Shown here piece by piece: positions 35,374 through 50,682 of a stretch of DNA of 64,000 nucleotides. Source of the stretch: Sinomonas notoginsengisoli (GTDB taxonomy: Bacteria; Actinomycetota; Actinomycetes; Actinomycetales; Micrococcaceae). The stretch covers positions 1 through 64,000 of the forward strand of contig NZ_JAIZDP010000004.1 in NCBI RefSeq assembly GCF_021554725.1, given 5' to 3'. Made by a program: the position numbers and the translations under genes. Numbering within the stretch: position 1 is the first letter of the stretch; every line of letters begins with the position of its first letter. The notes beneath the pieces were generated by a model. It did no database searches. It had not been told where the DNA came from and saw only the letters and a list, made by a program, of their open reading frames with translations.

Positions 35374-36297
35374 TTAGGCCCGTGACCTCCACCATGCCAC
35401 CGTGGCCGAGGCCGCCTCCTCGAGCGCCGTCGGCGCCAGGCCGAGCCTGTCCTGCGTGATGCTGGAGTCCATGACGAACGGCCGGGCGAACTGGTACGCC
35501 GTCTCCCCCACCTCGCGAAGCAGGGGAACGACGAGTCCACCGGCGCGGACGAGCCAGGCAGGCAGCACGCGGATCGGCGGCAGCTCCACGCCCGCGGCGT
35601 GTGCGAACGCCGCGGCCAACTCTCGCTGGCTGAGTGCAGGGAGGCTCGGAGCGTGGTGCATGCGGCCCCACTGCTTCGGATCTCGGGCCACCGCGATCAT
35701 GGCCACCGCGAGGTCCTGTACGTAGGTGAAGGTATGCGGCTGGTCCGCGCTTCCGATCAGGTCGAGGGGCTTGCCTGCGAGGATCCGCGGCAGCATGCGG
35801 TCGCCGGCGTGGGAGGCGAGGACACGCGGCCCAAAGAAGTCGCTCGCGGCAACGCTCGCGCTCCGAGCGGGGTGCGCCTGGCGCTCTCGGATGAGCTGCG
35901 CCCGCACTCCGCGCTTCCCACCTACTGCGTTGCGTTCGGAGTCCTCGGCCATCGGCAGGTCCGGCCGCGGGTAGGCGTAGAGGTTCTCAACGAAGACGAC
36001 GACGGCGCCCGCGGCCTCGGCGGCGTCGAGCACCGAGCGCTGGGCGCGGGGCAGTTCCCGTGCCCAGGCCGCCGCGGAGTAGGCGGTGCTCAGGGTGTAG
36101 AACACGGCGGAGGTGCCGTCGAGCTCGCGGGCGAGCAGCGCGCCGTCGTTCACGTCCACAGCCCTGAGATCGATGAGGGGATGTGCGGGACCGTTGCCCG
36201 AGCGGGTGATCACCTTTGCCCGCTCCCCCTGCTGTGCGAGCTTCTGGGCAACGGTCCAGCCGGCCACGCCGGATCCGATCACCGCGTACCGCTGCAT
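35374..36297 (-). CDS. NAD-dependent epimerase/dehydratase-like protein (atypical SDR)
   Basis: 307 residues. N-terminal nucleotide-binding loop YAVIGSGVAGWTVAQKLAQQ has GxGxxG spacing rather than the extended-SDR GxxGxxG; ENLYAYPRPD holds a Tyr where the catalytic Tyr usually is; FTYVQDLAVAMIAVARD is typical of the family. Substrate unknown. Although near the heptose cluster, it is not clearly an HldD. A purine-rich GGGAGAGGGG lies upstream of the ATG. A 7-bp inverted repeat (CCTAGTG/CACTAGG) is in the promoter region at 36315-36354. Confidence 0.8.
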   Translation of the reverse strand: MQRYAVIGSGVAGWTVAQKLAQQGERAKVITRSGNGPAHPLIDLRAVDVNDGALLARELDGTSAVFYTLSTAYSAAAWARELPRAQRSVLDAAEAAGAVVVFVENLYAYPRPDLPMAEDSERNAVGGKRGVRAQLIRERQAHPARSASVAASDFFGPRVLASHAGDRMLPRILAGKPLDLIGSADQPHTFTYVQDLAVAMIAVARDPKQWGRMHHAPSLPALSQRELAAAFAHAAGVELPPIRVLPAWLVRAGGLVVPLLREVGETAYQFARPFVMDSSITQDRLGLAPTALEEAASATVAWWRSRA

Positions 36298-36404
36298 TCG
36301 AGGCCCCTCTCCCGCCTAGTGGAACCGTGGCCGCTCCCTCGCCACCACACTAGGCCGCCGTGGTTCGGCGTACAGAACCATGAAGCGGGCTCCCCGTGGG
36401 AAGC

Positions 36405-37007
36405 CTATCGGCCCTGGTCACGCCGGAGGCGGACCGCCTTGCGTCCGTGCCCGGGCCGGCCCTCGCTCTCAGGTCTGACGGTCTCCGTCTCAGGGAGCTT
36501 GGTGGGTTCTGGGAAGCGGGAGATCATCGCGGGGACCGCCAGGAACGTGAGGATGCACAGTAGTCCGAGGCCTCCTCCGGCCACCCAGGACTGCCAGCGG
36601 CCGAGCACGACATCGAAGATGAGCGACGACGTGCCGACAATCAGGACCGCGGCGAGTCCGAGCGCTACCTTCGCCGCCCATGAGCCGCTCGCGACCAAAC
36701 GGTCCTTCACCTGTTTGCGGAAGAGCCATCGGTGGACACTCAACGGCGTCAGCACCACGAGCAGCGCGATGGCGGCGGTCACGACCATGATGAGGTAGAG
36801 CGCGCGCGAGTAGTCGTCCAGCGCGGCGAAGCGCGATTGGAAGGGCAGTGTCAACAGGAAGCCCGCAACGAGCTGGAGCCCCGTCTGGAGGATGCGCAGC
36901 TCTTGAAGGATCTCGGCCCAGTTCCTGTCCAGCTTCTCGGCATAGGTCTCCCGGCGGTGGTAGAGGGCGGAGCGCTGAGGGGACCGTTCAGTGGCTCCGG
37001 ATGCCAT
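36405..37007 (-). CDS. DUF6328-type membrane protein
   Basis: 200 residues. ETYAEKLDRNWAEILQELRI is the soluble start of the family, followed by four hydrophobic segments (LQLVAGFLLTLPF, ALYLIMVVTAAIALLVVLTPL, KVALGLAAVLIVGTSSLIF, LGLLCILTFLAVPAM) and a charged tail. Function unknown. The assigned ATG has no clear ribosome site, whereas a 12-codon frame beginning at 37026 has AAAGGA and overlaps it, so translation may be coupled or the true start may differ. Confidence 0.75.
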   Translation of the reverse strand: MASGATERSPQRSALYHRRETYAEKLDRNWAEILQELRILQTGLQLVAGFLLTLPFQSRFAALDDYSRALYLIMVVTAAIALLVVLTPLSVHRWLFRKQVKDRLVASGSWAAKVALGLAAVLIVGTSSLIFDVVLGRWQSWVAGGGLGLLCILTFLAVPAMISRFPEPTKLPETETVRPESEGRPGHGRKAVRLRRDQGR

Positions 37008-37101
37008 CGATCTGCTCGCTACTCATGGCCGTGATCCTTTCCGCGCCGCGCACCGACCAACCGGGGCCCGCGTAGACTTCTGTTTCCCCTTCAGCTGCGG
37101 T

Positions 37102-37992
37102 TCACACGTCGGAACGGGCTGCGCCCTCAGCGAGGACCTCTGACGCCTCGGCACTGCGGTCGGTCACGGTGGTGGGGCTCTCGAGGTGGACCGCCTGTGA
37201 GGGGATGATTCCGGCACCGCCGAATCTCTCCATGACACGCCACTGCGCAACGACATCCTCCCCCGAATGGCCAGGAGGAAGGTCGCGCCAGAAACCGAAG
37301 CCGCCGCACACCTCGAGCGCGTCCCGGCGGTACAGGACGCACCCGCCGATCCATGCCACGCGATAAGGCAGCCACTCTCCCGGCTGCAGCCTGCCCTCCT
37401 TGCTCAGGTCGGCGGCGAGATGTGCGAGGTTCGCGGCGTTGTGGAGCCGCCATCGCTCAAAGCCCGGCGTCCCTCGGTCCAGGTGTTCGGGCTGCACCGG
37501 TCCATCCCACAGCGAGAATTCCCGGACCTCGTCGGGACGCCGATCGTCCAAGTAGGAGAGGCCTTGGACCGCCATCCCCACAAACCCGCAACCGAGCGTC
37601 ACGAGTGCTTGGTCCAGCGTGCGCACGGCAGAAGGAGCCAGCCACACGTCGTCGTCCAGAAAGAGGATGCGCGGCGCAGAGGAGGCTTCGAGGAGGGTCT
37701 GGCGGTGCTCCGCCAGACCCCGGGGCGGGCGGTGCTGCTGGACCCGCACAGCGCGGCCCTGGGCCTCGAGGACCCGCAGCATGGCCTCCGCGGCGGGGTG
37801 CGCCCAGTCCGGCGAGCCGTCGCTCTGGTCGCTCACGATGACGCCGAAGTCCTCCGCGTCCTGTGCCGCGAGCCCGGCGAGGGTCGCGGCGAGCTCCGCG
37901 GGCCGATGGCGCGTGGGGATGAGGACCTCGAGTGCCGGGGGCGTGGCACACGGTGCGGTGGCAGCCCACTCCTGGGGCCCTCGCCGCGTCAT
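37102..37992 (-). CDS. family 2 glycosyltransferase
   Basis: 296 residues, GT-A fold. EVLIPTRHRPAELAATL at the start, nucleotide/metal motif ILFLDDDVWL (DxD), acceptor region VAWIGGCVLYRRDALEV and HSGEDVVAQWR. No membrane segments, so cytoplasmic. Its ATG overlaps the stop of the upstream HldE-like gene (ATGA). Likely adds a sugar to the glycan built by this cluster; donor unknown. Confidence 0.88.
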   Translation of the reverse strand: MTRRGPQEWAATAPCATPPALEVLIPTRHRPAELAATLAGLAAQDAEDFGVIVSDQSDGSPDWAHPAAEAMLRVLEAQGRAVRVQQHRPPRGLAEHRQTLLEASSAPRILFLDDDVWLAPSAVRTLDQALVTLGCGFVGMAVQGLSYLDDRRPDEVREFSLWDGPVQPEHLDRGTPGFERWRLHNAANLAHLAADLSKEGRLQPGEWLPYRVAWIGGCVLYRRDALEVCGGFGFWRDLPPGHSGEDVVAQWRVMERFGGAGIIPSQAVHLESPTTVTDRSAEASEVLAEGAARSDV

Positions 37993-39434
37993 CGCTCGGC
38001 CCGCTCGTCGACCGGCTGGGCCAAGCCCCGCTCAACGTATCCGAGCATTTCGAGGCGGCCGCCGACGGCCTCGACCGCGCTCGCCTCGGCGAGCATCTCC
38101 GGCAGGTAGTCCCCGCCCTTCACGTAGACATCCGGCTCGAGGACCTCGATGAGCGGGACGGCAGTCTCCGAGTCGAAGATCAGGGCATGGTCCACCGAGG
38201 CCAGTGCAGCGACGACCGCTGCACGGTCATCCTCCGCCATCTCAGGGGCCACACCGTGGAGACGCCGAGCCGACTCGTCCGAATTCACGCCCACCACGAG
38301 CAGGCCTCCGAGCCGGGACGCCTCCTCGAGGAAGGCGGTGTGCCCGCGATGCAGGCCGTCGAATACCCCATTGGTGAGCACGACGGCGCGTCCCTCCGCC
38401 CGCGCCCGGCGTGCGCCTGCGCGCGCGGTGTCGAGGGCACTGACGGACCGGACCGGTCCGCCCGAGAGCGCCACAGCGAGGCGCTCGCCGCTGCACGCCG
38501 TCGTGCCGCGGGTCTCCACGACGACGTCCGCCGCGGCTTGGCCCACGTCTGCGGCGACCTCGATCGGCAGTCCTACCGCGAGGGCGTAGGCGAGCCCGGC
38601 CACGAACGTGTCGCCCGCACCGACCGCATTCTGCTCCGGTGCTGGGCGGGCACTCGTGGTGTGCGGGGAGCCCGAGCGGCCGAGGAGGATCGTTCCGTCC
38701 GTGTCAAGTGTCACGAGCGTGTGCTTGGCTCCTGTGGCGGCTTCGAGTTCGCGGGAACGGGCGGCCGCCCACTCCCGGCGATCGCCACGGGGGCTCGGCT
38801 CGCCGAGCAGCGCGGCGGCTTCCTCGGCGTTCGGGGTGGCCACGTCCGCTCCGAGGCTCGTCCAACCGGCGAAGTGCCGCGCGTCCACGACGAGGGCGCG
38901 TGCACCACGCCGCAGGGCCACCCGGTCCAGCGCGGCGAGCGCGCCGAGGCCGTAGTCGCACACCACCACCGCGTCCGCTGTGTCCAACACCGCGAGGGCC
39001 CGGTCAGCGACCTCCCTCGCCTCGTCCTCGTCAGCGGGCCTGCATGAATCGACGCGCAGGAGAAGGTGCTCCTGGGCGAGCATGCGCGCCTTGACCGACG
39101 TCGTCTTCCCGGGCCGGCGCACGAGGCCCCCCGCGCCGTCGCCCGCGCCGACCCCCGCCCCTGAGAGGCACGACGACAGCGCCTCGCCGGGCTCGTCGTC
39201 GCCCGCAACCCCGATGAGCACCACCTCGGCTCCGAGCGCCGCGAGGTTGGCAGCCGTATTCGCCGCACCGCCGGGGGCATCGACGGTCCGCTCGATGTCG
39301 AGCACTGGTACGGGGCCCTCACGGCACAGCCGGTCGGCCTCGCCCTCGCACCACCGGTCGAGGATCACGTCCCCGAGGACCAGGACCTTGGGCCGACGCG
39401 CCGCGAGGGCGGAGACGATGTGGTCTGGGTTCAT
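37989..39434 (-). CDS. HldE-like bifunctional heptose-7-phosphate kinase / heptose-1-phosphate adenylyltransferase, copy 1
   Basis: 481 residues, close to E. coli HldE (477). The N-terminal PfkB-type kinase (~1-320) shows VLGDVILDRWCEG, DAPGGAANTAANLAALGAEV and the ATP/anion site NAVGAGDTFVAGLAYA. The C-terminal cytidylyltransferase-fold domain (~345-475) shows VLTNGVFDGLHRGHTAFL (HxGH motif), GVNSDESARRL and DVYVKGGDYLPE. Predicted to make heptose-1,7-bisphosphate and ADP-heptose. ATG 39434 is used; an in-frame TTG at 39467 is less likely. It begins 1 nt after the stop of an aldehyde-dehydrogenase-like remnant and has no strong ribosome site, so it may rely on reinitiation. A second copy is at 41965. 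Confidence 0.88.
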   Translation of the reverse strand: MNPDHIVSALAARRPKVLVLGDVILDRWCEGEADRLCREGPVPVLDIERTVDAPGGAANTAANLAALGAEVVLIGVAGDDEPGEALSSCLSGAGVGAGDGAGGLVRRPGKTTSVKARMLAQEHLLLRVDSCRPADEDEAREVADRALAVLDTADAVVVCDYGLGALAALDRVALRRGARALVVDARHFAGWTSLGADVATPNAEEAAALLGEPSPRGDRREWAAARSRELEAATGAKHTLVTLDTDGTILLGRSGSPHTTSARPAPEQNAVGAGDTFVAGLAYALAVGLPIEVAADVGQAAADVVVETRGTTACSGERLAVALSGGPVRSVSALDTARAGARRARAEGRAVVLTNGVFDGLHRGHTAFLEEASRLGGLLVVGVNSDESARRLHGVAPEMAEDDRAAVVAALASVDHALIFDSETAVPLIEVLEPDVYVKGGDYLPEMLAEASAVEAVGGRLEMLGYVERGLAQPVDERAER

Positions 39435-39435
39435 C

Positions 39436-39881
39436 TCATACCACCGTTCTGTAATCCGTACGGGCAACGACTGGAGGTTCGAGGTGGACTACCTTGGGGC
39501 GGCTCAGCTCGTCGAGCAGCCGGGGCCCGAAGCCCACGGGGCTCCCTGCCTGCGGGAGTCCCGGCGCGTCTGTTCCCGTGGCTCCTTGTGCGAGGCCGTT
39601 GACGACCGGAAGCTCCGCCGCAGCGATCTGCGCGTGCGCGATGTCCCGTGTGAGGACGATCCCCAAGGCCCCGCACGGGTACTCGGCGGCCTCGGCAATG
39701 GCCTCGTCGAAGCTGTGGACCCGGATCACGGCGAGGACCAGCCCGCGCAGCTCAGCGGCAACCGCCTCCATTGACACTGCGGGGCCGGCCTGGGTGGCCT
39801 TGCCGGGGCCTCATCCTGTTCGTTCTCGGATCCGCGCAGTGCTCCTGCGCTCTCTGCCTTCTCCGGCAAAGTGGCGCTCAT
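39436..39881 (-). pseudogene. aldehyde dehydrogenase-like remnant, internally deleted and frameshifted
   Basis: Only the C-terminal ~100 residues of an aldehyde dehydrogenase are recognisable (LVLAVIRVHSFDEAIAEAAE, IVLTRDIAHAQ, ELPVVNGLA); the catalytic Cys region is missing. A very good ribosome site (AGGAGG, 39884-39895 region) precedes an ATG at 39881 that opens a different frame for about 35 codons (MSATLPEKAE) before the recognisable part resumes at about 39777. I read this as one gene that lost its middle. Alternatively the 3' part is a small protein in its own right. The stop is 1 nt from the hldE copy 1 start. Confidence 0.55.
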
Positions 39882-39914
39882 GGCATTCCTCCTGATCAGA
39901 CGTGCAGACGGCTA

Positions 39915-39939
39915 TTACCCCGAGGGCCGGCGTCCAAGC
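39915..39939 (-). promoter_or_regulatory. SigB/SigF-type promoter, hldE copy 1 operon
   Basis: GCTT (36-39 of 39900 block), 15-nt spacer, GGGTAA at 39915-39920 on the minus strand, 33 nt before the ATG at 39881. Fits GNNT-N14-16-GGGTA. Confidence 0.45.
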
Positions 39940-39986
39940 CGCCTCGCCGCGCCCCCCCACCGCTGGGGGCCGTACGTGGTGCAGGC

Positions 39987-40012
39987 GTTTGCCGAAGAGC
40001 ACCCTCGGGTAG
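39987..40012 (+). promoter_or_regulatory. SigB/SigF-type promoter of the first GT9 gene
   Basis: GTTT (39987-39990), 16-nt spacer, GGGTAG (40007-40012), 35 nt before the ATG at 40048. It is back to back with the minus-strand element at 39915. Confidence 0.5.
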
Positions 40013-40047
40013 CGCGTGGGAGACAGGACCGCGAAGGAAGGCAGGCC

Positions 40048-41169
40048 ATGGTAGACCGGGACGAACCGTTCAGAGACGTCGCGAGGCGCTTCGAGGACAT
40101 CAGGAGGATCGCGGTACTCCGCGGAGGCGGCATCGGCGACCTGCTCTCGGCATTCCCGGCGCTCGTGGCACTTAGGGCCACGTATCCCGGCGTGCACATC
40201 ACACTTCTGACGACGCCGCTCCTCGCTGGCCTGCTCGACGGCCGGCCCGGCCCCTACGACTCCGTGAGGATCGTGCCGGTCTTTCCGGAGGCACCGGCCC
40301 CCGAGCGCGTGTTCTGGCGCGACGATCAGGCAACCCTGCGCCTCGTGGACGAGCTCCAGGCCGAACGGCTGGACCTCGCGATCCAGATGCACGGCGGCGG
40401 CCGCAACTCCAATCCGTTCGTCCTCGCGCTTGGCGCCGCCCACGCGGTGGGCTGCTCCACGCCCGACGCGCCCCGTCTCGACCGCCAGCTCCCGCACGTC
40501 TACTACCAGCGTGAAGTGGAGCGCTGGCTTGAGGTCGCTGGCCTCGCCGGTGCCGCCGTGCAGGACCACGAGCCGCGGTTCCTCACAGTGGGCGAGGACC
40601 GAGATGCCGCCCAGCCGTGGCTGGACCCGGAGGCGAGAGGCCTCGTCATCGTGCATCCCGGGGCGAGCGACCCGCGCCGGCGTTGGCCCGCGGAACGGTT
40701 CGCGGAGATCGTCGCAGCCCTCGCCCAGGAGGAGTGGCAGGTGCTCCTGGTCGGTGACACCGGCGAGAAGGCGCTTGCGGAGGGGATTGCGGACGACGCC
40801 GCCAGGGCGGCTCCCAGCGCGGCGCACCGCATCGGCTCGGCAGCCGGCCGCACCGACCTGCACGGCCTGGTCGGCCTGCTCGACGCCGCACGGCTCGTGA
40901 TCGCCAATGACAGCGGGCCGCGGCACCTGGCCCAAGCGCTGGGAACGCCCACGGCGTCGGTGTACTGGGGCCCCAATCTCGTCAACGCCGGGCCCCCGCA
41001 GCGGCGGCACCATCGGGTGCAGGTGTCGTGGCGGCAGCTCTGCCCGGTGTGCGGCGCGGACGGGACCGACCCCCTGGGCCGGTCCTGCCCCCACGAACAG
41101 CCTTGGGTCGCCGACGTGCCTGCCGAGGGCGTGCTCGCGGACGCCCATGACCTGCTGAACGGAGATTAG
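40048..41169 (+). CDS. family 9 glycosyltransferase (heptosyltransferase-like)
   Basis: 373 residues, GT-B fold. IAVLRGGGIGDLLSAFPALVALR is the N-terminal GT9 signature; C-terminal nucleotide-binding features are VIVHPGASDPRRRWPAERF and VIANDSGPRHLAQALGTPT. A Cys-containing segment near the end (LCPVCGADGTDP, RSCPHEQ) resembles the Cys cluster of WaaF-type heptosyltransferases. ATG 40048 is chosen for GAAGGAAGG at about 8 nt; the frame is open upstream. Its stop overlaps the stop of the converging SDR gene (TTAG). Confidence 0.9.
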   Translation: MVDRDEPFRDVARRFEDIRRIAVLRGGGIGDLLSAFPALVALRATYPGVHITLLTTPLLAGLLDGRPGPYDSVRIVPVFPEAPAPERVFWRDDQATLRLVDELQAERLDLAIQMHGGGRNSNPFVLALGAAHAVGCSTPDAPRLDRQLPHVYYQREVERWLEVAGLAGAAVQDHEPRFLTVGEDRDAAQPWLDPEARGLVIVHPGASDPRRRWPAERFAEIVAALAQEEWQVLLVGDTGEKALAEGIADDAARAAPSAAHRIGSAAGRTDLHGLVGLLDAARLVIANDSGPRHLAQALGTPTASVYWGPNLVNAGPPQRRHHRVQVSWRQLCPVCGADGTDPLGRSCPHEQPWVADVPAEGVLADAHDLLNGD

Positions 41170-41900
41170 GGCCAGGAATCCTCCATGGAGCCGGCGACCA
41201 GGAGTTCGCGGACCTCGCAGCCGGGAGGCTGGGAGAGCGCGAACAGCACGGAGCGGGCCACGTCCGAGGGCCGATTGAGCGTGGTCCTGTCGTGGGGCTT
41301 GTACTCCTCGGGGCGGTCGTCGAAAAACGGTGTGTCCATGCCGCCGGGAATGAGGGTCGTGACACCCACTCGGCCCTTGAGCTCTGCGGCAAGGGCGCGG
41401 CTGAACCCGATGATGCCGAATTTCGAGGCGCAATAGGCGGTGGCGCCGGCGGCGCCACGCAGGCCGAGAGTAGAGGCTACCGTCACGACACGCCCGTGCG
41501 ACCTGGTGAGGTGCGGCAGGGCAGCGCGCACGACTGCGGCGGTCCCCAGGAGGTTGACAGCGATGACGCGCTCCCATTCCTCCCCGGGTACCTCGCTGAG
41601 TTCGCCGCAACGGTCCATCCCCGCCGCGCACACCACGGCATCGAGGCCGCCGGTCTCCTCAACGGCGCGCGCTACCGCGGCTTCCGCCGCCTCGCGCTGG
41701 GAGAGGTCCACCGTCCATGCCTTCACTCCCTCCGCGGCCGGCTGCCGGTCCAGGACGAGCGGGTGAGCGCCCTCGGCAGAAGCCGCGGCGACGATGGCGG
41801 CGCCGAGCCCCGATGCGCCCCCGGTCACGAGGATGCGGGCACCCCGCAGCGGGCTCTGGGCGTCCTGGATCTGCTGGTTCTGGGTCACGGTCTGGGTCAT
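41166..41900 (-). CDS. short-chain dehydrogenase/reductase in the heptose cluster
   Basis: 244 residues, classical SDR. VTGGASGLGAAIVAAAS (NAD(P) loop), AAGMD, catalytic Ser in VASTLGLRG and YCASK (Tyr/Lys). It is a classical rather than extended SDR, so it is unlikely to be HldD itself; it could reduce or oxidise a sugar intermediate. AAGGAAGGA is 6 nt upstream. Last gene of the minus-strand operon starting with gmhB. Confidence 0.88.
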   Translation of the reverse strand: MTQTVTQNQQIQDAQSPLRGARILVTGGASGLGAAIVAAASAEGAHPLVLDRQPAAEGVKAWTVDLSQREAAEAAVARAVEETGGLDAVVCAAGMDRCGELSEVPGEEWERVIAVNLLGTAAVVRAALPHLTRSHGRVVTVASTLGLRGAAGATAYCASKFGIIGFSRALAAELKGRVGVTTLIPGGMDTPFFDDRPEEYKPHDRTTLNRPSDVARSVLFALSQPPGCEVRELLVAGSMEDSWP

Positions 41901-41964
41901 CAGGATCCTTCCTTGGTGGTGATGTGGTCAGGTTGTTCCGGTACGGGCCGATCCGGGCCGCGTC

Positions 41965-43389
41965 TCAGCTGAGGCTGGCGATCGCCGTGGCGAGGCCCGT
42001 CGTCGACCGCCCCGGCTCGAGGGGAATGGTGACTACCTCGCCGCCCCAGCGGCGCAGCAGCTGGGTTTCGGGCAGCTTGCTGGCCTCGTAGTCGGCACCC
42101 TTCACCCAGATGTCCGGGCGGAGTTCGCGCAGCAGCTGCTCCGGGGTGTCTTCGGCGAAGACCTCGACCGCGTCCACGCAGCTCAGGCCGAGGAGGAGCT
42201 CCACACGGTCCTGCTGGGACATGAGGGGACGGCTCTCGCCCTTGAGGCGGCGGATCGAGTCGTCGGAGTTGACGCAGACGATGAGACAGTCGCCGAGGTC
42301 GCGCGCCGCCTCGAGGAGTCGAAGGTGCCCGGCATGGAGGAGATCGAAGCATCCTCCGGCAGCCACGACGCGGCCGCCGAGGCTTTGGACCCTCCGGGCG
42401 AGGGAGAATGCCGGCGCTTCCTCTGCCTCGGCGGAGGGCCCGGCCACGAGGCGTGCAGCGCCCTGCGACCCTGCGCCGTCGGCTGCGGCGGGCGGACGGG
42501 TCAAGCTGCCCGCGCCGAGCGAGGACACTCCGCCGCGGGCGAGGAACGATGCGGATGCCGAGACAGCCGCCTCGACAGCCGCTTCGATTCCCTTCCCGTC
42601 GGCCAGGGCCACCGCGAGCGAGGCCGCGAAGCGATCCCCGGCGCCGCAGGAATCCTCGATCCGCAGACCCGTCGAGGGCGCTGCAATGTGCGTGTCGGCA
42701 TCGGGGCCGCAGACGAGCGCGCCGCGCTCGGCCAGGGTCACGATGAGCGAGTCTGCCTTCCACTGCAGCCGAAGCTTTCCGGCCGCGCTGGCCACTGCGT
42801 CGAGCCCGCTCGCTGCGCGACCCGAGAAGGCGAGCAGCTCGGGCAGGTTCGGCGTCACGGCCGCGGCATGGCTGATGGGGGGCGCACCCTGAGGATGCGG
42901 GTCCCAGACCACGGGAACGTGGCGCGCCGCGTCTTCGAGCGCTGCCCGCATCGTCGGGTCGTCTGCGAGGCGGCGCCCGTAGTCGGCCACGACGATGGCG
43001 CCGGCATCCGCGAGAGAATCGAGCATCGCATGGTCCACCAGCGGGAAGGGCCGGGGACCGCAGCCCTCATCGATGCGGGCGATCCGCTGGCCGTCCGCGG
43101 TGACCCTCATCTTCACGGGGGTCGGACCCTGGAGCTCGCCCGCGCTCAGGTGCACGCGATCCAGCAGCGCACGGAGGCGTTCCGAAGCGTGATCATCGGA
43201 AAGCGCGGTCAGGAGCTCGACCTCGTGACCGTCGTCGGCGAGCATGGTTGCCACGAGGCCCGCTCCCCCGGCGCGTTCCTGCCGGTGCGCCACGTCGATG
43301 ACGGGCGCAGGCGCGTCAGGGCACAGCCGGCCTGCGTGCCCGGTCACGTCGATGTCCATGAGCGTATCGCCCACTACGGCAACTTTCAC
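41965..43389 (-). CDS. HldE-like bifunctional kinase/nucleotidyltransferase, copy 2
   Basis: 474 residues. PfkB-type kinase domain (~1-300) with VVGDTLMDIDVTG, ERAGGAGLVATMLADDG and EDSCGAGDRFAASLAVA; an Ala/Gly linker (~300-335); nucleotidyltransferase domain (~340-470) with VVAAGGCFDLLHAGHLRLLE (HxGH), CVNSDDSIRRLKG and DIWVKGADYE. Both active sites look intact, as in copy 1. GTG start with GGAGG 6 nt upstream and only 1 nt from the gmhA stop. Its pairing with gmhA makes it the better candidate for the main heptose pathway. Confidence 0.87.
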   Translation of the reverse strand: MKVAVVGDTLMDIDVTGHAGRLCPDAPAPVIDVAHRQERAGGAGLVATMLADDGHEVELLTALSDDHASERLRALLDRVHLSAGELQGPTPVKMRVTADGQRIARIDEGCGPRPFPLVDHAMLDSLADAGAIVVADYGRRLADDPTMRAALEDAARHVPVVWDPHPQGAPPISHAAAVTPNLPELLAFSGRAASGLDAVASAAGKLRLQWKADSLIVTLAERGALVCGPDADTHIAAPSTGLRIEDSCGAGDRFAASLAVALADGKGIEAAVEAAVSASASFLARGGVSSLGAGSLTRPPAAADGAGSQGAARLVAGPSAEAEEAPAFSLARRVQSLGGRVVAAGGCFDLLHAGHLRLLEAARDLGDCLIVCVNSDDSIRRLKGESRPLMSQQDRVELLLGLSCVDAVEVFAEDTPEQLLRELRPDIWVKGADYEASKLPETQLLRRWGGEVVTIPLEPGRSTTGLATAIASLS

Positions 43390-43390
43390 G

Positions 43391-44128
43391 TCAGTCCTCC
43401 CGTAGTCCCGAGGGCCTCTCGGCGCCCGAGTATTCGCCTGCTACGCAGGCGTCGAAGCATGCACAGAGTGCATGGATGGCGACGAGCTGCGATTCCTGCA
43501 CGTGGCAGTTCGGCCCGTCGAGGACGAGCGCTTCGTCGACAACGACAGAGAGCGGGTTCGGCCCGGGCCCCGTGAGGGCCCATGTCAGTGCGCCGCACTC
43601 GCGGGCTGCACCAGCGGCGGCGAGCAGATTCTGGCTCTTGCCGGAGGTGGAGAGCAAGATGAGGATGTCCCCGGCCCTCGCATGGGCCCGTACCTGACGT
43701 GCGAACACCTCGTGGTAGCCGTAGTCATTTCCGATGGCGGTCATGGCGGAGCTGTCGCCGTGGAGCGCGATGGCGGAGAACGGTTGCCGCTCCCCGTCAT
43801 ATCGGCCCACGATCTCAGCCGTGAGGTGCTGGGCCTCCGCGGCGGACCCGCCGTTGCCCGCGGCGAGGAGCCGCGCGCCGCCCGTGAGGCGCTCGGCCAG
43901 CAGTCGCCCCCATCTGGCCAGCATCGGCGAGTGGTCCTTGAGCAGCTCGAGGACCTCCATGGACGTGCCGATGTGGGAGGCGACGTCCTGCGCCAGGGAC
44001 GCCGTTCGATCGGGGCCGGTTAGGGCCAAGGGGGAACCGACGCTCACGACGCCGGGCACGGGCCTGAGGGCGGTACGCCCTCGTCCTGCTGTCTGGGCGC
44101 TGTTCACGCCGCGGTGCAGTGGACGCAT
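43391..44128 (-). CDS. gmhA: SIS-domain sedoheptulose-7-phosphate isomerase (GmhA-like)
   Basis: 245 residues; about 45 extra N-terminal residues before the SIS domain. LLAAGNGGSAAEAQHLTAEIVGRY matches the GmhA substrate loop (NGGSAADAQH), followed by ILILLSTSGKSQNLLAAAGA and C-terminal HVQESQLVAIHALC (HxxQE). Converts sedoheptulose-7-phosphate to D-glycero-D-manno-heptose-7-phosphate, first step of the ADP-heptose pathway. Starts 2 nt after the upstream GT4 stop; AGGAAGGGAG upstream. Confidence 0.9.
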   Translation of the reverse strand: MRPLHRGVNSAQTAGRGRTALRPVPGVVSVGSPLALTGPDRTASLAQDVASHIGTSMEVLELLKDHSPMLARWGRLLAERLTGGARLLAAGNGGSAAEAQHLTAEIVGRYDGERQPFSAIALHGDSSAMTAIGNDYGYHEVFARQVRAHARAGDILILLSTSGKSQNLLAAAGAARECGALTWALTGPGPNPLSVVVDEALVLDGPNCHVQESQLVAIHALCACFDACVAGEYSGAERPSGLRED

Positions 44129-44130
44129 CC

Positions 44131-45417
44131 TCAGCTCCCTTCCTCAACGCGCCGAAGCCTCCGCCTGGACCTGGCGACCTCCGGCTCGGGCTGTTCCCAG
44201 TGGTCACGCATCGCGCGGTAGATGTGCTCGGTGTCCCCGGCGATCCTGTCCCACGTGTACCGTGCCCGGGCGCGTTCCACGCCAGCCTCGCCGAACCTGG
44301 ACCGGAGCTGGGGATCATCCGCGAGCGTGCAAATGGCCTCGGCGAGCGCCGCGGGATCCTTCGGCGGCACGTGGAGGCCGGTGACGCCATCGACCGTTGT
44401 CTCGGCGAGCCCGCCGACGGCGGCGACGATGGTAGGAACGCCACTGGCCATCGCCTCAAGGGGCACGATGCCGAAGGGCTCGTACCACGGGCAGCACACG
44501 GCAGCGTCCAGGCTCCGCGTGAGAGCCGGCATCTCGTCCCGCGGGACCTGCCCCGTGAAAATGACCTGACGGGAGACTCCGAGCGAGTCGGCGAGGTCGC
44601 GGAGCCTGCGCACCTCGGGGTCAGAGGCGACGTGGTCTTTCGTCAGCGACCCGCCCACCACGAGGAGTTCGATGTCAGTTCGGCCGGAGGCGGCGAGGCG
44701 GCCAAGCGCCTCGATCACGGTGTCCACTCCCTTGCGCGGCACGAGGCGTCCAATGGTCGCGATCCTGAAACGGTGTCCGCGCTCGCGGACCGGCCCGTCT
44801 GGCCTGAAGACCTGAGTATCGACACCACAGGGCGCGATGGAGATACGCTTACGGCCCACGCCCAGCGCACGCAGCTCGAAGGCTTCGTCAGGGCAGGTCG
44901 CGATGACCCGGTCCACCGAGCGAGCGACCCACGGCTCGAGGAACTCGCGCTCCGGCGGGCTCGTGTCTGCGACGCCCTGATGCCTGCGCTTGACGATTCC
45001 CAGCGCGTGGAAGGTCTCAGCCACGGCCGGCGGCTGGAAGCCCCGGTCCTGAAGCTTCGCGACCCCTTCGATGCAGGCCACGCCCGACATCCAGAAGTGC
45101 CCGTGGACAACATCGGGGACGTTCTCGGCCCAGTAGTCCGCGAGGTGGTCACCGAACTCGGGGATGAAGGGAAGGATCTTGTCCTTGACAATCTCACGGG
45201 GAGGACCGGCATCGACGTTGACGAGGCAGACTCCGTTCGAGAGCATCTGCTCCCAATGGAGCCGCGCGCTGTCACGGCGTGTGAACACGGTGACCGAGTG
45301 GCCACGTCTGACCAGCGCGGCGGAGAGTTCCGCCACGTGCACGTTCTGCCCGCCAGCATCCTCTCCGCCGATCGCGGCGAGTGGACTGGCATGCTCCGAG
45401 ACCATTGAGATCTTCAT
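44131..45417 (-). CDS. family 4 glycosyltransferase
   Basis: 428 residues, GT-B fold. N-terminal SEHASPLAAIGGEDAGGQNV is typical of the sucrose-synthase/MshA-like GT4 branch; C-terminal IATIGRLVPRKGVDTVIEAL and PWYEPFGIVPLEAMASGVPT (E-x7-E) bind the nucleotide sugar. AAGGAG lies 7 nt upstream. It is between gmhA and a second GT4. Donor and acceptor unknown. Confidence 0.92.
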   Translation of the reverse strand: MKISMVSEHASPLAAIGGEDAGGQNVHVAELSAALVRRGHSVTVFTRRDSARLHWEQMLSNGVCLVNVDAGPPREIVKDKILPFIPEFGDHLADYWAENVPDVVHGHFWMSGVACIEGVAKLQDRGFQPPAVAETFHALGIVKRRHQGVADTSPPEREFLEPWVARSVDRVIATCPDEAFELRALGVGRKRISIAPCGVDTQVFRPDGPVRERGHRFRIATIGRLVPRKGVDTVIEALGRLAASGRTDIELLVVGGSLTKDHVASDPEVRRLRDLADSLGVSRQVIFTGQVPRDEMPALTRSLDAAVCCPWYEPFGIVPLEAMASGVPTIVAAVGGLAETTVDGVTGLHVPPKDPAALAEAICTLADDPQLRSRFGEAGVERARARYTWDRIAGDTEHIYRAMRDHWEQPEPEVARSRRRLRRVEEGS

Positions 45418-45462
45418 GGTTGTTCTCCTTCCGGCTTGAAGGCGTCCATAGGCGCGTCCATC

Positions 45463-46491
45463 TCACCGGACCTCCGCACGGGCTGGGATCAATGGGCTGC
45501 CCGACGAGGCCGGCGCGGTGCGTCGCCCGAGCACCACGTCACTGAGCACCTCATCCCAGTCCTTGAGGAACCGTCCGAGTCCGTAGCGGGCCAAGGCGGC
45601 TTCACGGGCGATCAGACCTGCCTCGCGGGCCTTGTTCGGGTGCGAGAGCAGGCGCTGTGCGGCGGCGGCGAGCTCACCAGGGTCCGAGCTCACGCAACCG
45701 GCCCCGGCGGGCACCGCACGCCAGACCTCGGTGGCACCGATGGCGAGCACCGGCATGGCCAGCATCATGGCCTCTATGAGGGCGAGGCCGAGCGAGGTCC
45801 AGCGGAAGGGGTGCAGGTAGGCCCGGCGCCGGGCGAGCTCGAGGTGCAGGCGGTCTGGGGCGAGGTCTCCGGCCCAGGACAGCCGCCCCGCCGCGATTCC
45901 CGCGGCCGCTTCCAGCCCGTCACCGGCCATGCCGAAGACGTCCAGCGGTGAGACCTCGGCGAATCGCGGGAGCAGGTCGGTGCCTGCGACCCTGCCGCGC
46001 CGCACGGGCTCGTTCACCACGACGCCGAGCCGGGCGAGCTCCCCGGTGTACATCGGCCCTGGATCCTGGACTCCGTGTTCGACGACGTACACCGGGGCAC
46101 GTCCGCTGTCCCACATGAGGGCGTTGAAGTGGGTCACATGCACGATCGGGATCTCCGCTTGGCCCGCCAAGGGGTGGCGGGTATCGGGAACTCCCCCTCG
46201 CGGGGTGTTGTGCTCGACGTACACCGCTGGCAGGTCGGCCCCCGGCAGCCGACCTGTCAGCGAGCGTACGAGTTCAATCTCGTCGAGCCGCTGGAGCACC
46301 ACGGCGTCGATCCGGCCCGCGCTCTCGGCGAGCTGTTCCGCTGTGGCCTCCACAGCGGAGGGCCATTGCCTCCCTGCGATGCCAAGGCCTTTGGCGCTGT
46401 CCTGGGGGTCAACGGGCAGGATGTACTCGTGGCTTCCGCGGACGAATCCGTCCATCCAGCCGCCGTGCATGTGCCACGCAAGAATGCGCAT
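45463..46491 (-). CDS. GT4-like glycosyltransferase
   Basis: 342 residues. Start MRILAWHMHGGWMDGFVRGS; later ADLPAVYVEHNTPRGGVP, VNEPVRRGR, and the C-terminal donor-site region HPFRWTSLGLALIEAMMLAM, which fits the E-x7-E pattern loosely. The ATG shares its A with the upstream TAA (TAATG), so coupled to the GT9 gene. The frame is open far upstream but that part is the antiframe of the GT9 gene. Donor unknown. Confidence 0.85.
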   Translation of the reverse strand: MRILAWHMHGGWMDGFVRGSHEYILPVDPQDSAKGLGIAGRQWPSAVEATAEQLAESAGRIDAVVLQRLDEIELVRSLTGRLPGADLPAVYVEHNTPRGGVPDTRHPLAGQAEIPIVHVTHFNALMWDSGRAPVYVVEHGVQDPGPMYTGELARLGVVVNEPVRRGRVAGTDLLPRFAEVSPLDVFGMAGDGLEAAAGIAAGRLSWAGDLAPDRLHLELARRRAYLHPFRWTSLGLALIEAMMLAMPVLAIGATEVWRAVPAGAGCVSSDPGELAAAAQRLLSHPNKAREAGLIAREAALARYGLGRFLKDWDEVLSDVVLGRRTAPASSGSPLIPARAEVR

Positions 46492-47516
46492 TAGGCCACC
46501 GCCCCGGTCTCGGCGCCCAAGAGTTCCCGAACGGCGGTCAGAACATGTTCGGCGCGGACGTCGCTGAGGCACGGATGCCCAGGAATCGGACAGATCCGAG
46601 CGCGGGTGCCCGAGCATGCAGCGGTCTGGTCGCCGAGCACCACGACTGGTGCTCCCCTCGGCTTCCATACTCCCGGGGGCACGACGGGCGCGAAGAGGCT
46701 CACCACGGGTGTGCGCGTCGCCGCCGCCAGATGGGCCGGGCCGGTGTTTCCTGCCACGACCACGCTCGCGCCTTCCAAGAGGTCCACGAGGGCGGGCAGG
46801 CTCGTACGGCCTCCGAGGTCGATCCCCTGGGAGCCTGCCACCCGGGCGGTGAGCGCCCGCTCGTCGGGGCCGCCGGTGACGACGACCTGCATGCCGGTGG
46901 CCGCGAGCAGTTCGACTAGCGCTGCGCAATGTTCGGCGGGCCAAGCCCGGGCAGGGGCATCCGCGCCAGGGTGGACAACGACATATGCGCCGGTCGGTCG
47001 GATCCCGCTGTGGCGCTGGGGAGCGAGGGCCGGGAGCCCGTCGTCGTCCGCGGGCAGTGAGAAGCCCGCCGCGGCCGCGATGCCGAGGGCACGGTCCACC
47101 TCGTGGACAGACCACGGGAGCTGGCGGGTAGTCACGCGAACGTCGATGAGCGAGCCCGGGTAGTCCTCGGAGAGAGCGGTGATGCGAGGCACCCCGCACA
47201 GCCTCAGTTCGAGGGCCAGAGGCAGCGGTGACTGGTGGAAAGAGGTGAAGATGACTGCCTCATCAGGGGCTATGTCGGTGATGAGGCGCTCGAGCCGGCG
47301 CAGGTGGCGCGGGCTTGCCTCGGCGGCAGGGTTGCCGATCCAGGGGCAGTCCCACTCGCTGACGTGCTGCACGTGCGGCAACAACCGCGCAGCGGCCGCT
47401 CCGCGCGGACCTGTCAGCAGGAACGGCTCGGCCCGGGTCGCGATCGCCCGGACAGCCGGGCCTGCCATGACCACGTCTCCAAGGCTGTCGAGCCTGACCG
47501 CGAGGACCCGCTTCAT
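46491..47516 (-). CDS. family 9 glycosyltransferase
   Basis: 341 residues. MKRVLAVRLDSLGDVVMAGP is the classic ADP-heptose:LPS heptosyltransferase-type N-terminus; YVVVHPGADAPARAWPAEH and VVAGNTGPAHLAAATRTPV form the nucleotide site; a C-terminal Cys pair (ACSGTRARICPIPGHPCL) recalls heptosyltransferases. The ATG overlaps the gmhB stop (ATGA). Confidence 0.91.
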   Translation of the reverse strand: MKRVLAVRLDSLGDVVMAGPAVRAIATRAEPFLLTGPRGAAAARLLPHVQHVSEWDCPWIGNPAAEASPRHLRRLERLITDIAPDEAVIFTSFHQSPLPLALELRLCGVPRITALSEDYPGSLIDVRVTTRQLPWSVHEVDRALGIAAAAGFSLPADDDGLPALAPQRHSGIRPTGAYVVVHPGADAPARAWPAEHCAALVELLAATGMQVVVTGGPDERALTARVAGSQGIDLGGRTSLPALVDLLEGASVVVAGNTGPAHLAAATRTPVVSLFAPVVPPGVWKPRGAPVVVLGDQTAACSGTRARICPIPGHPCLSDVRAEHVLTAVRELLGAETGAVA

Positions 47517-48121
47517 GCGGCACTGCTCATCGCGGAAGCACCACTGTCGGGGTCCGGGGATGCGGCTGCGGAGGCCATGTCGGGTCCGAGCGCGAGGGTC
47601 AGGGCAGACCACAGGTCGCCCGCCACGGCCGGCGCGTCGAGGACTTCGCGACGCAGGGTAGTGGGGCTGGGCACCATGATGCCGCGGGCACCGGCGCGCA
47701 GTGCGGCCGTCATGTCCGCACCGATGTCCCCGATGACGACAACCTCCTTGGGGCTCACGCCGAGGTCACGGCAGGCGGCAAGCACAAGTCCCGGACGCGG
47801 CTTGCGGCAGGCACAGCCGTCGTCAGGAGCGTGCGGGCAGACCTGCCACGTGTCGAACGGGCCCAGGATCTCCTCGACACGGGCATTGACGGAGCGCATG
47901 TCATCCATGCCGATCTTGCCGAGGGCCACCGCGGACTGATTCGTGACGACACCCGTGCGCAGGCCGAGTGAACGCAGACGCTCGAGTGTCTGCTGGGCCC
48001 CGGGCATCGGGGTCACGAGCTCAGGGTCCCCGTTGTAGGGGACGTCCACGACAAGCGTGCCGTCGCGGTCAAAGAGCACCGCAGCGGGAGTCAGCTTGCG
48101 TTCATGGTCCATCATCTTCAT
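47513..48121 (-). CDS. gmhB: D-glycero-D-manno-heptose-1,7-bisphosphate 7-phosphatase (GmhB-like, HAD-IIIA)
   Basis: 202 residues. HAD motif I VLFDRDGTLVVDVPYNG, motif II VVTNQSAVALGKI, a zinc loop CPHAPDDGCACRKPRPG with the conserved CxH/CxC layout and the catalytic Lys, and motif IV VVIGDIGADMTAAL. It removes the 7-phosphate between the two HldE reactions. Three ATGs lie in the first four codons; the first is used. TAGTCT -10 is about 30 nt upstream. First gene of the gmhB-GT9-GT4-GT4-gmhA-hldE-SDR operon. Confidence 0.91.
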   Translation of the reverse strand: MKMMDHERKLTPAAVLFDRDGTLVVDVPYNGDPELVTPMPGAQQTLERLRSLGLRTGVVTNQSAVALGKIGMDDMRSVNARVEEILGPFDTWQVCPHAPDDGCACRKPRPGLVLAACRDLGVSPKEVVVIGDIGADMTAALRAGARGIMVPSPTTLRREVLDAPAVAGDLWSALTLALGPDMASAAASPDPDSGASAMSSAA

Positions 48122-48233
48122 GGAGAAGAAGTGCCCGAGCCGCAGTAGACTAAACGGATCTGACGGGAGTTCTCCTCCTTCTAGCTCAAGCCGCGGGCAC
48201 AGATTGTTGCGTCGTTTGCCTCAAGGAGTTGCC

Positions 48234-49178
48234 GTGGACAAGCCTCATCGACCCGTTCTCCTCGTCCTCCGTGCGCTCAAGCTCGGGGATCTCCTCGTCG
48301 CGGTCCCAGCGCTCCGCGGCCTCAGGCGAGGCTTTCCCGATCACGAACTCGTGCTCGCGGTCCCGGGCTGGCTCAGCCCCGTGCTGCCACTCATCGGAGG
48401 CATCAACCGGCATCTGGCTACGCCGGGCCTCGATGATCCTCTGCCTTGGGAGGGCACGGTAGACGTGGCGGTCAACCTCCACGGCAACGGTCCCGAGAGC
48501 CGCGGGCGTCTCGAACAGCTCTCTCCGACGTATCGGATCGGACACGCGGCGCCGGGCTGGAGCGGTCCCACCTGGGATGACGATCTCCACGAGCGGGACC
48601 GCTGGGTTCGTCTGGTGAACTGGCACGGCCTCGCTGCAGAGGCGAATGACTACCGCCTGTGCCCGCCGGAGGTGTCGGCACCTCTCGAGGATGCGACCCT
48701 CCTCCACGTCGGCGCCGCACACGGGAGCCGCCAGTGGCCCGTCGAACGGTTCGCCGATGTCGCGGCGGTCCTGGCCCTGCGCGGGCACCGGGTCGTGATC
48801 ACCGGCGGCCGCCAGGACCTGCTCCGGGCGACGGCCGTGGCCAAAACCGCCGGACTTCCGGAAAGCGCCTGCGTGGCCGGGCGCTGGGAGCTCGATGAGT
48901 TCGCGGCAGCCATTGCCGCAGCACGGTTGGTCATCACGGCGGACACCTCGGCCGGCCATCTGGCCACCGCCTATGGAACGCCGTCAGTGGTCCTGTTCGG
49001 CCCCGCCGCGCCAGAGCACTGGGGCCCGCCAGCCGATGGACCGCACATCGTCTTGACCGACGCCGAGGTACGGGCCGGCGAACCGTTCGCAGAAGTACCC
49101 GACCCGGCGATCCTGGCCGTCCTTCCGGGGCACGTTCTCGACGCGGTGGACAGCCTTGAGGCGCACGACGCCGCATGA
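48234..49178 (+). CDS. family 9 glycosyltransferase
   Basis: 314 residues. VLLVLRALKLGDLLVAVPALRG N-terminal GT9 signature; LLHVGAAHGSRQWPVERFAD and VITADTSAGHLATAYGTPS in the donor domain. GTG 48234 has AAGGAG 6 nt upstream. Divergent from gmhB across 112 nt. Third GT9 of the cluster; it lacks the Cys cluster seen in the first. Confidence 0.9.
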   Translation: MDKPHRPVLLVLRALKLGDLLVAVPALRGLRRGFPDHELVLAVPGWLSPVLPLIGGINRHLATPGLDDPLPWEGTVDVAVNLHGNGPESRGRLEQLSPTYRIGHAAPGWSGPTWDDDLHERDRWVRLVNWHGLAAEANDYRLCPPEVSAPLEDATLLHVGAAHGSRQWPVERFADVAAVLALRGHRVVITGGRQDLLRATAVAKTAGLPESACVAGRWELDEFAAAIAAARLVITADTSAGHLATAYGTPSVVLFGPAAPEHWGPPADGPHIVLTDAEVRAGEPFAEVPDPAILAVLPGHVLDAVDSLEAHDAA

Positions 49179-49251
49179 TCACCGCGGGGGCAGGCCGCCC
49201 CTTCTGACACATCACCTCCGCTGAGGCAGCATTCTCCGGCCCGCCGACACA

Positions 49252-49290
49252 AATGACGGGAGCGAGCCCTGAGGCTCGGCTCCCGTCATT
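49252..49290. terminator. bidirectional terminator between the GT9 gene and sigF
   Basis: Stem of 17 bp (AATGACGGGAG...CTCCCGTCATT core) with one bulged base and a 4-nt loop, between converging genes. Confidence 0.75.
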
Positions 49291-49331
49291 CAGCGCTCGT
49301 TCTTCCAGCGCCTTGTCCTTCAGGTGTCCTG

Positions 49332-50162
49332 CTAGGCGGCCATGCGCCGACGCAGCCTGTCGAGCAGCCGCTTGAGGAGGCGGGAGACCTGCATTTGGCT
49401 GACACCCAGCTCCGCCGCGATCTGGTCCTGGGTCATCTCGTTCACGAAGCGAAGCTGCAGAAGGCGCCTGTCGTCCACGGACGCGTCCGAGAGGGCCGCC
49501 TCAAGGGCATCAATCTGCTCGACACGCTCGTAGCCAGGGTCCTCCCCGCCGAGGATCACCATGACCCGGCGTTCCTCAGGATCATCGGACATGTCGCCAT
49601 GCTCGACCGGTTGGCCGACCATGGCCGCGTCTGCAATCTGGGCGTCCGCGACATCGCTTGCCGGCACTCCGGCCGCCGTGCTCAGCTCCGCAGTGGACGG
49701 TTCGTGGCCGAGCTCCTGTGCGAGCCCCGGCCGGAGAGCGTTGACCTTGAGCCGGAGTTCCTGAAGGGCCCGGGGCGGCCGGACCACCCATGACTGGTCG
49801 CGCAGGTAGCGCTTCAGTTCACCGTTGATGGTTGGGACCGCATAGGGCACAAATCCGTGGCCCAGGGATTCCTTGTACCGCTGGGCGGCCTTGATGAGCC
49901 CTAGTCGAGCCACCTGGCGCAGGTCATCGGCATCGTGCCCTACACACCGGAACCGTCTGGCGAGGGCATCTGCCACTCCGAGGTACTCGAGCGCCAGCTT
50001 TCCCGCTGCCCGTGCGCTGGCCGGCGTCAATGGCGAAATGGACGAGCGAACGGCGGAGGTCGGCAGCGGCCGGCTCCTGAGAGCATCCTCGGGCACACCG
50101 GCGATGACCGGATCGAATGGAACTGCCGACAGGTCGCCCTGCCGCTTCTCAACATTTTTCAT
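49332..50162 (-). CDS. sigF: RNA polymerase sigma factor, SigB/SigF (group 3 general stress) type
   Basis: 276 residues. Region 2 DADDLRQVARLGLIKAAQRYK and FVPYAVPTINGELKRYLRDQ; region 3 VRPPRALQELRLKV; region 4 RRLLQLRFVNEMTQDQIAAELGVSQMQVSRLLKRLL. The SVPTI/AVPTINGELKR stretch and VSQMQVSRLL are characteristic of the SigB/SigF group rather than SigA. AGGAGG about 10 nt upstream of the ATG. No anti-sigma (RsbW) or anti-anti-sigma gene is adjacent, unlike most such loci. Probable regulator of the SigF-type promoters listed around it. Confidence 0.92.
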   Translation of the reverse strand: MKNVEKRQGDLSAVPFDPVIAGVPEDALRSRPLPTSAVRSSISPLTPASARAAGKLALEYLGVADALARRFRCVGHDADDLRQVARLGLIKAAQRYKESLGHGFVPYAVPTINGELKRYLRDQSWVVRPPRALQELRLKVNALRPGLAQELGHEPSTAELSTAAGVPASDVADAQIADAAMVGQPVEHGDMSDDPEERRVMVILGGEDPGYERVEQIDALEAALSDASVDDRRLLQLRFVNEMTQDQIAAELGVSQMQVSRLLKRLLDRLRRRMAA

Positions 50163-50259
50163 TGCGAGTTTCCTCCTCGCTGGGGTCAGAAAAAACCTAT
50201 GGAACGCTAGGCCGACCCTCCTCAGAATCGACGATCCGCGCCACAGAAATCACGGATCC

Positions 50260-50298
50260 GGAGATTAGGGCTCGAGTGGGGGGAGATTAAGGCTCGAG
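50260..50298. repeat. 17-nt direct repeat with 22-bp period upstream of sigF
   Basis: GGAGATTAGGGCTCGAG (50260-50276) and GGAGATTAAGGCTCGAG (50282-50298) differ at one base. The 22-bp period is two helical turns, so a protein could bind both on one face. About 100-135 nt upstream of the sigF start. Confidence 0.6.
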
Positions 50299-50673: not shown

Positions 50674-50682
50674 TAGGTACCA

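Follow-up and report, generated by a model that had tools for sequence, protein, structure and literature searches.

A cwg-type gene cluster with a predicted heptose glycan product and a SigB-type promoter-like site in Sinomonas notoginsengisoli

Positions 37102-49178 of the window, by which we mean the whole analysed stretch of 64,000 nucleotides from Sinomonas notoginsengisoli, contain eleven genes that, at the level of sequence, share a core of seven genes with the cwg operon of Streptomyces coelicolor, hold the full set of enzyme families for synthesis of nucleoside diphosphate heptose (NDP-heptose) and carry a conserved SigB-type promoter-like site. The cluster is a real and conserved system, a variant of a known cluster with a predicted product, and its reading as a heptose cluster stands. 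We consider it probable that it represents the Micrococcaceae-type variant of an actinobacterial cwg-type cluster, controlled by a stress sigma factor of the SigB/F type and directing the synthesis of a surface-bound or exported heptose glycan. The SigB-type promoter-like site is new and the most useful addition to the description of this cluster.

An earlier note on this DNA had listed gmhA, gmhB, two HldE-like genes, three GT9, two GT4, one GT2 and one SDR gene, and translation and family matches confirm both this inventory and the reported arrangement. One operon on the minus strand runs from 48121 to 41166 (GmhB-GT9_b-GT4_b-MshA-like GT4-GmhA-HldE_B-SDR) and a second one from about 39434 to 37102 (HldE_A-GT2), while GT9_a (40048-41169) and GT9_c (about 48234-49178) are located on the plus strand. 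The corrected gene starts in the second operon and of the plus-strand GT9 genes were set from conservation and sequence. Two details of the inventory required revision: HldE_A, described as bifunctional, keeps the GAGD and HxGH motifs and lacks STT, and an aldehyde dehydrogenase gene reduced to a stump (39436-39777) had been overlooked.

The core shared with cwg, its distribution and its loss

According to the accessible text of the articles cited here, cwg (SCO6179-SCO6190) is a sigma-E target described in 2002 (cited in PMC6767563) that is induced by vancomycin and whose cell wall glycan product is predicted only (PMC6767563, PMC13011467); its first gene, cwgA, is induced by salt in S. coelicolor (PMC13011467). 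The accessible parts of PMC5839063 assign cwgB, cwgC, cwgE, cwgG and cwgJ to transferases, cwgD to a dehydratase, cwgI to a bifunctional synthase/transferase and cwgH (SCO6186) to a putative phosphoheptose isomerase, and those of PMC5882110 describe cwgE as a putative heptosyl transferase. No statement on the sugar of the cwg product was found in the accessible text, supplements not covered, of the literature on cwg, heptose and actinobacteria, and no word beginning with 'heptose' occurs in such text of the cwg literature searched for it. Letters of further cwg genes are assigned here by position.

A Streptomyces plasmid (NZ_CP071045.1) has the gene order epimerase, carbamoyltransferase, GT (glycosyltransferase), HAD, GT9, GT, GT, SIS, rfaE2, GT9, GT, GT, which fits the twelve genes SCO6179-6190 of S. 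coelicolor. The plasmid cluster is surrounded by CsbD, STAS, GAF-ANTAR and PP2C genes. The published sigma-E promoter of cwg (accessible text of PMC6767563) was found with at most two mismatches in six of 392 Streptomyces genomes and without mismatch in one of them (G751); three of the six (G751, G631 and G648) were compared with the window. In G751, which we infer to be S. coelicolor or a close relative, 12 genes in cwg order can be recognised downstream of the exact promoter, and seven of these match genes of the window in the same order with 46-65% identity. G631 has the same 12 genes, several of them in pieces, and just two of the 12 are present in the fetched stretch of G648. The positions of cwgA, cwgB, cwgC, cwgK and cwgL are occupied in none of the 17 Micrococcaceae-type loci, and we have therefore filed the cluster as a cwg variant and not as the cwg operon. 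This relationship had not been recognised in the earlier note, whose proposal of a heptose-containing glycan is supported in its heptose part.

Gene neighbourhoods were mapped on 49 stretches including that of the window. As the other 48 had been fetched for a match to GmhA, GT4_b or HldE_B, the gene order in them is informative and the presence of these genes is not. The six-gene order GmhB-GT9-GT4-GT4-GmhA-HldE occurs in 29 of the 49 stretches, which is beyond chance, and all seven core families were found in 35. The denominator includes stretches without a cwg-type locus (L034, L085, L095), stretches cut by contig ends or start (L022, L036, L039, L080) and stretches with core genes missing or rearranged (L077, L078, L084, L088, L091, L092, L094); L016 and L017 were omitted because they come from the same genomes as L024 and L026. 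L034 (genome G022) is a second GmhA-like gene 19 kb off the cluster, with no other cluster genes in its stretch, and L041 contains an apparent GT2-GmhB fusion (14157-15686, minus strand) in a single frame of 509 residues. Outside the core, GT9_a accompanies 16 of the 17 Micrococcaceae-type loci and none of the 32 others, HldE_A was found in 16/17, GT2 in 14/17 (2/32 of the others) and the SDR gene in all 17 (20/32 of the others). GT4_b, the hallmark of the cluster in this analysis, was sought in 246 genomes drawn from the class; 61 of them, the window's own included, have it with at least 300 bits and 96 at an E-value of 0.001, and when 20 of the places with at least 300 bits were fetched, 12 had all seven core families. 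Among 246 genomes drawn from the phylum, 27 have it at an E-value of 1e-30; 18 of these belong to other classes, including three with weaker matches (35-37% identity).

Within Sinomonas, GmhA is encoded in nine of 15 genomes, the window's included, and the heptose cluster is a dispensable trait in this genus. In three genomes without GmhA (G003, G014, G001) the flanking sigma and DUF6328 genes lie 0.34-0.64 kb apart. G002 (L097) has a remnant consisting of GmhB, GT9_c, the MshA-like GT4 and a frame-broken HldE_B, G012 (L098) a remnant with the MshA-like GT4 and fragments of HldE_B and GT9_c, and G008, also without GmhA, has no DUF6328 match. The MshA-like GT4 is nearly full length in the decayed loci L097 and L098 (74-76% identity) despite the broken HldE_B. 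Since the identities of cluster and flanks are similar, repeated loss fits better than a recent horizontal island, which we rejected on these identities and on the Sinomonas remnants, no tree being used. The aldehyde dehydrogenase stump on the minus strand of the window comprises the C-terminal part only (tblastn, residues 380-487 of 488, 42%; PF00171, 24.6 bits, cut-off 23); in 12 of the 16 other Micrococcaceae-type loci the match extends over most of the protein, in contrast to the last approximately 108 residues in the window. The flanks (34830-53444) carry genes of stress type, namely for a universal stress protein (34830-35540), a DUF6328 membrane protein, a DNA topoisomerase IB (51151-52275), an SDR protein (52182-53066) and a DUF2795 protein.

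Enzymes of the heptose pathway and glycosyltransferases

The set of enzyme families for NDP-beta-D-manno-heptose (GmhA, HldE kinase, GmhB, HldE nucleotidyltransferase) is complete in the cluster, and the motifs are present. GmhA (43391-44128, minus strand) belongs to the sedoheptulose-7-phosphate isomerase family (TIGR00441, 140.1 bits, below the cut-off of 209.45) and aligns with solved phosphoheptose isomerases (PDB 5i01, 136 bits). GmhB (47513-48121, minus) is a HAD-IIIA phosphatase (TIGR01662, 103.5 bits, over the cut-off; NF006506, 97.7 bits, below 178) and aligns with the D,D-heptose 1,7-bisphosphate phosphatase 4pnh across the CPH and CxCRKP blocks. HldE_B (41965-43389, minus) matches kinase/heptose-1-phosphate nucleotidyltransferases (TIGR02199, 182.4 bits, cut-off 181.5; PDB relatives 5x9q and 4e84), and HldE_A (37989-39434, minus) likewise combines a heptose-7-phosphate kinase domain with a nucleotidyltransferase domain (NF008454, 296.9 bits; TIGR02198, 207 bits; both below cut-off). 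For GmhA, for GmhB and for the HldE_B kinase domain, the closest relatives in the PDB are heptose enzymes. The PfkB kinase domains have GAGD and the nucleotidyltransferase domains HxGH; the roles of the residues in the pathway motifs, STTR5 excepted, are general background. The genome of 3.59 Mb has a single match to GmhA and three matches to PF01075 (GT9), every one of the latter inside the cluster. With a family match and the expected motifs at every step, the heptose pathway put forward in the earlier note is supported.

The STTR5 motif has been tied to the synthesis of ADP-, CDP- and UDP-heptose, the adenosine, cytidine and uridine diphosphate forms (Tang et al. 2024, through the accessible text of PMC11461863 and PMC11573728). 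STT is missing from HldE_A of the window, as it is from the eight further copies in Sinomonas with a readable C-terminus; one more Sinomonas copy (L025) is unreadable because of a frame change. The motif is kept in the other Micrococcaceae-type copies (L032, L033, L035, L036, L073, L096). Since it lacks STT, the Sinomonas HldE_A probably functions as a kinase only.

Two other assignments were considered and rejected. HddA is the GHMP-type kinase of the pathway to GDP- (guanosine diphosphate) alpha-heptose (HddA/HddC); no kinase of this type is encoded in the cluster, where the kinases are PfkB proteins, the rest of the genome not having been searched for HddA, and we dismissed the GDP-heptose route because of this absence. 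The 6-epimerase HldD, which belongs to the pathway of the Gram-negative lipopolysaccharide core, was recognised neither in the cluster nor among the 25 of 201 families that were listed, the rest of the genome not having been searched. An HldD-like role of the SDR protein (41166-41900, minus) was rejected on its family: it is a classical SDR oxidoreductase (PF00106, 146 bits) with YCASK in the translation and best NCBIfam matches of the SDR/FabG type.

All three GT9 proteins belong to the heptosyltransferase family: GT9_a (PF01075, 96.7 bits), GT9_b (46491-47516, minus; PF01075, 87.7 bits; PDB 1psw, 47 bits) and GT9_c (TIGR02193, 63.8 bits, below cut-off; PDB 3tov, 62 bits), the last being a relative of the tenth cwg gene with 47% identity. 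The GT2 protein (37102-37992, minus; PF00535, 41.2 bits) matches none of the cwgC, cwgK and cwgL places. GT4_b (45463-46491, minus) matches PF13692 with 31.8 bits and has no NCBIfam match at 1e-6. The other GT4 protein (44131-45417, minus) is related to MshA and sucrose-phosphate synthase; it was rejected as the MshA of this genome, given a TIGR03449 score of about 209 bits vs the cut-off of 462.5 and a match over the cut-off elsewhere (G000:C1:1018761).

Promoter-like sites and stress control

According to the accessible text of PMC8346170, promoters of the SigB family in S. coelicolor have GTTT and, in the -10 box, GGG with A at the fifth position. GTTT and GGG boxes are conserved in the alignment of the regions upstream of GmhB. 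A search for GTTT-N14-17-GGG[ACT]A gave a site 20-67 bases upstream of the extrapolated GmhB start in all 16 Micrococcaceae-type loci considered (ten from Sinomonas, six others), in the form GTTT-N15/16-GGG[AC]A. The background amounts to 51 hits in 740,296 strand positions, or 0.008 per 120 bases, the 16 GmhB sites counted in. In the window the site reads GTTTAG-N13-GGGCAC (48131-48155, minus), and the ATG of GmhB lies 9 bases downstream of the -10 box. A second site (GTTT-N16-GGGTA; 39987-40011, plus) is situated upstream of GT9_a in the window and in five other Sinomonas loci, and the pattern search detected none in front of HldE_A, GT2, GT9_c or the genes for DUF6328 and the sigma factor.

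In 27 other loci the SigB-type site was present at 15 of 255 gene starts, distributed over 11 loci, for which the random mean is 1.3. All 15 sites precede cwgA, cwgB, cwgC, GmhB or GT4_b relatives (115 starts), in contrast to 0 of 140 starts of six other families, and random placement gave a mean of 1.4 and a maximum of 7 in 1000 draws. Control searches in the same loci gave no site for spacings 10-13 and 18-21 or for the reversed motif and two each for spacings 4-7 and 24-27. No SigB-type site was found in the stretches of G751, G631 and G648. Conversely, the sigma-E-type sequence AAC-N15-18-CGTC occurs upstream of GmhB in one of 16 Micrococcaceae-type loci, which is not the window, and sigma-E control of the window operon was rejected for this reason. 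To judge from these patterns, the link to SigB-type control seems to be widespread, with sigma-E control as the apparent form in Streptomyces. A gene for a sigma factor of the SigB/SigF/SigG family adjoins the cluster (49332-50162, minus; TIGR02980, 203.8 bits, below 234.35), and such a gene is found in the surrounding stretch in 12 of the 17 Micrococcaceae-type loci.

Nature of the product and comparison with known systems

In Sinomonas, whose wall we take to be of the Gram-positive type, the most likely product is a surface-bound or exported heptose-containing glycan. In the proposed mechanism the kinase domains of HldE_A and/or HldE_B would form the 1,7-bisphosphate, GmhB would take off the 7-phosphate, and the nucleotidyltransferase of HldE_B would yield ADP-heptose and possibly, in view of its STTR5 motif, also CDP- or UDP-heptose; HldE_A would probably supply the kinase only. 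The three GT9 enzymes would add heptose, further sugars would be attached in the cytoplasm by the two GT4 enzymes and GT2, the SDR protein would modify a sugar, and export genes elsewhere in the genome would complete the surface-bound or exported glycan. Under general stress the main operon would be switched on by a sigma factor of the SigB/F type, probably that encoded next to the cluster. Our preference for a surface or exported glycan comes from the response of cwg to envelope stress. The earlier note had seen no flippase, polymerase or initiator; this holds for the cluster, but elsewhere the genome has two matches to PF00953 (MraY/WecA-type) and six ABC-2 membrane matches, which leave room for lipid-linked export.

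Several observations weigh against this reading. The heptose of the product is predicted from genes and not from chemistry. The heptose equivalog cut-offs of NCBIfam were missed except for the nucleotidyltransferase of HldE_B, so that family, motifs and synteny are the basis for assigning the exact reactions, and STT is replaced by STS, SST or SSS in HldE_B relatives of L020, L033, L096, L074, L080, L081, L084 and L092. The cluster of the window lacks five of the twelve cwg genes as well as the sigma-E promoter. By hydropathy and labels, no transporter, polymerase or ligase family is among the families common to at least four of 41 stretches, and no protein of the genome matches Polysacc_synt (Wzx) over the Pfam cut-off (best 24.5 vs 28.2; controls pass in 13 of 14); both results speak against an ordinary exported polymer. 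As to regulation, the 16 loci with the site before GmhB are related, ten being from one genus, and hence do not represent 16 independent tests; the site is absent from 16 of the 27 other loci, which tells against a universal SigB-type link; and in Sinomonas L028-L031 no sigma gene is found around the cluster, so that the acting sigma factor is not proven.

It is conceivable, though on balance unlikely, that the product is instead a soluble cytoplasmic heptose oligosaccharide or glycoside that serves as stress protectant or reserve. In that case the MshA-like GT4 would begin with a small phosphorylated acceptor, and extension would be the task of the remaining transferases. MshA and sucrose-phosphate synthase use small phosphorylated acceptors, and the PDB entries nearest to the MshA-like GT4 are 6kih (sucrose-phosphate synthase, 183 bits) and 3c4q (154 bits). 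Taking K78, R154 (phosphate), T134 and Y110 as the contacts of MshA, as we assume, the cluster proteins have K at the first position in 40/43 and R at the second in 43/43, alanine at the T134 position in 43/43, and at the Y110 position F in 33 and Y in two, the pattern having failed to find it in eight. The absence of any membrane transporter family common to at least four of the 41 stretches, the SigB-type sites and the induction of cwgA by salt would also suit such a product. The AlphaFold2 model of GT4_b (predicted local distance difference test, pLDDT, 81) has the small- or cytosolic-acceptor enzymes 7qsg and BshA among its best fold matches; however, these matches are to the generic GT-B fold (template modelling score about 0.67), extend to PimB', PimA and TarM with lipid- or wall-bound acceptors and indicate neither donor nor acceptor. 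Against a soluble product, moreover, cwg responds to cell-wall antibiotics via sigma-E, PF00953 and ABC-2 proteins are encoded elsewhere in the genome, and the acceptors of functionally known GT9 enzymes are membrane-bound lipopolysaccharide (LPS). We are rather doubtful of a broader proposal, in which a cluster common to the Actinomycetota, cwg being one variant, would make an all-cytoplasmic heptose glycoside or oligosaccharide in a SigB-type stress response, and its NDP-heptose (ADP, CDP or UDP) would make many LPS-free bacteria sources of ALPK1 agonists.

A secondary metabolite cluster for the attachment of heptose to a small molecule, as with septacidin, is very improbable. Septacidin of Streptomyces fimbriatus is made from NDP-heptose (accessible text of PMC11461863 and PMC11573728), and another kind of heptose cluster, which includes radical SAM and P450 genes, is found on a Streptomyces plasmid (L095), but the present cluster has no scaffold-making gene, and the spread of GT4_b (61/246 genomes of the class, 18 genomes beyond it, seven families in 12/20) is wide for one metabolite. 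In that plasmid, NC_023285.1 (pFRL5 of Streptomyces sp. F8), the cluster combines an rfaE2 gene of 1962 bases that also matches GmhA with genes for radical SAM, P450, serine hydroxymethyltransferase and carbamoyltransferase proteins, and likely makes a natural product. Least credible of all is a different sugar pathway of the PfkB and SIS genes without any heptose, for which the missed cut-offs and a best PDB match of the HldE_B nucleotidyltransferase labelled just 'putative cytidylyltransferase' might be quoted, since all four pathway families stand together with three GT9 genes, the motifs are kept, and the best PDB matches relate GmhA, GmhB and the HldE_B kinase to heptose enzymes.

With cwg recognised as one form of a heptose cluster in many actinobacteria, many of them with a SigB-type promoter-like site, the gap in the identity of the cwg product leads to simple tests for heptose. 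A wider set of bacteria is also expected to hold NDP-heptoses, which are sensed by vertebrate ALPK1. The remark of the earlier note that ADP-heptose is an ALPK1 ligand agrees with the accessible text of PMC11461863 and PMC11573728 and says nothing on a role in this soil bacterium.

Compared with NDP-beta-D-manno-heptose biosynthesis as known, the cluster has all enzyme families and differs in that no HldD was recognised in it, that there are two HldE proteins, one without STT, and that the genus is Gram-positive. HldE_B shares the motif of STTR5-type NDP-heptose enzymes in the form LEPGRSTT, from which its substrate range is predicted. With the SigB-family promoters of S. coelicolor the site of the window has the GTTT and GGG-x-A boxes in common, its -10 sequence GGGCAC being that of rrnEp2 (accessible text of PMC8346170), and it presumably has a corresponding role. 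Judged on G751 and L093, which have the cwg promoter or the set of 12 genes, the cwg operon and the window have seven collinear genes (GmhB, GT9, GT4, GT4, GmhA, HldE, GT9). The operon has an epimerase, a carbamoyltransferase and three other transferases (cwgA, cwgB, cwgC, cwgK, cwgL) and the sigma-E promoter, whereas the window has instead the SDR gene, a second HldE, a third GT9, another GT2 and the SigB-type site.

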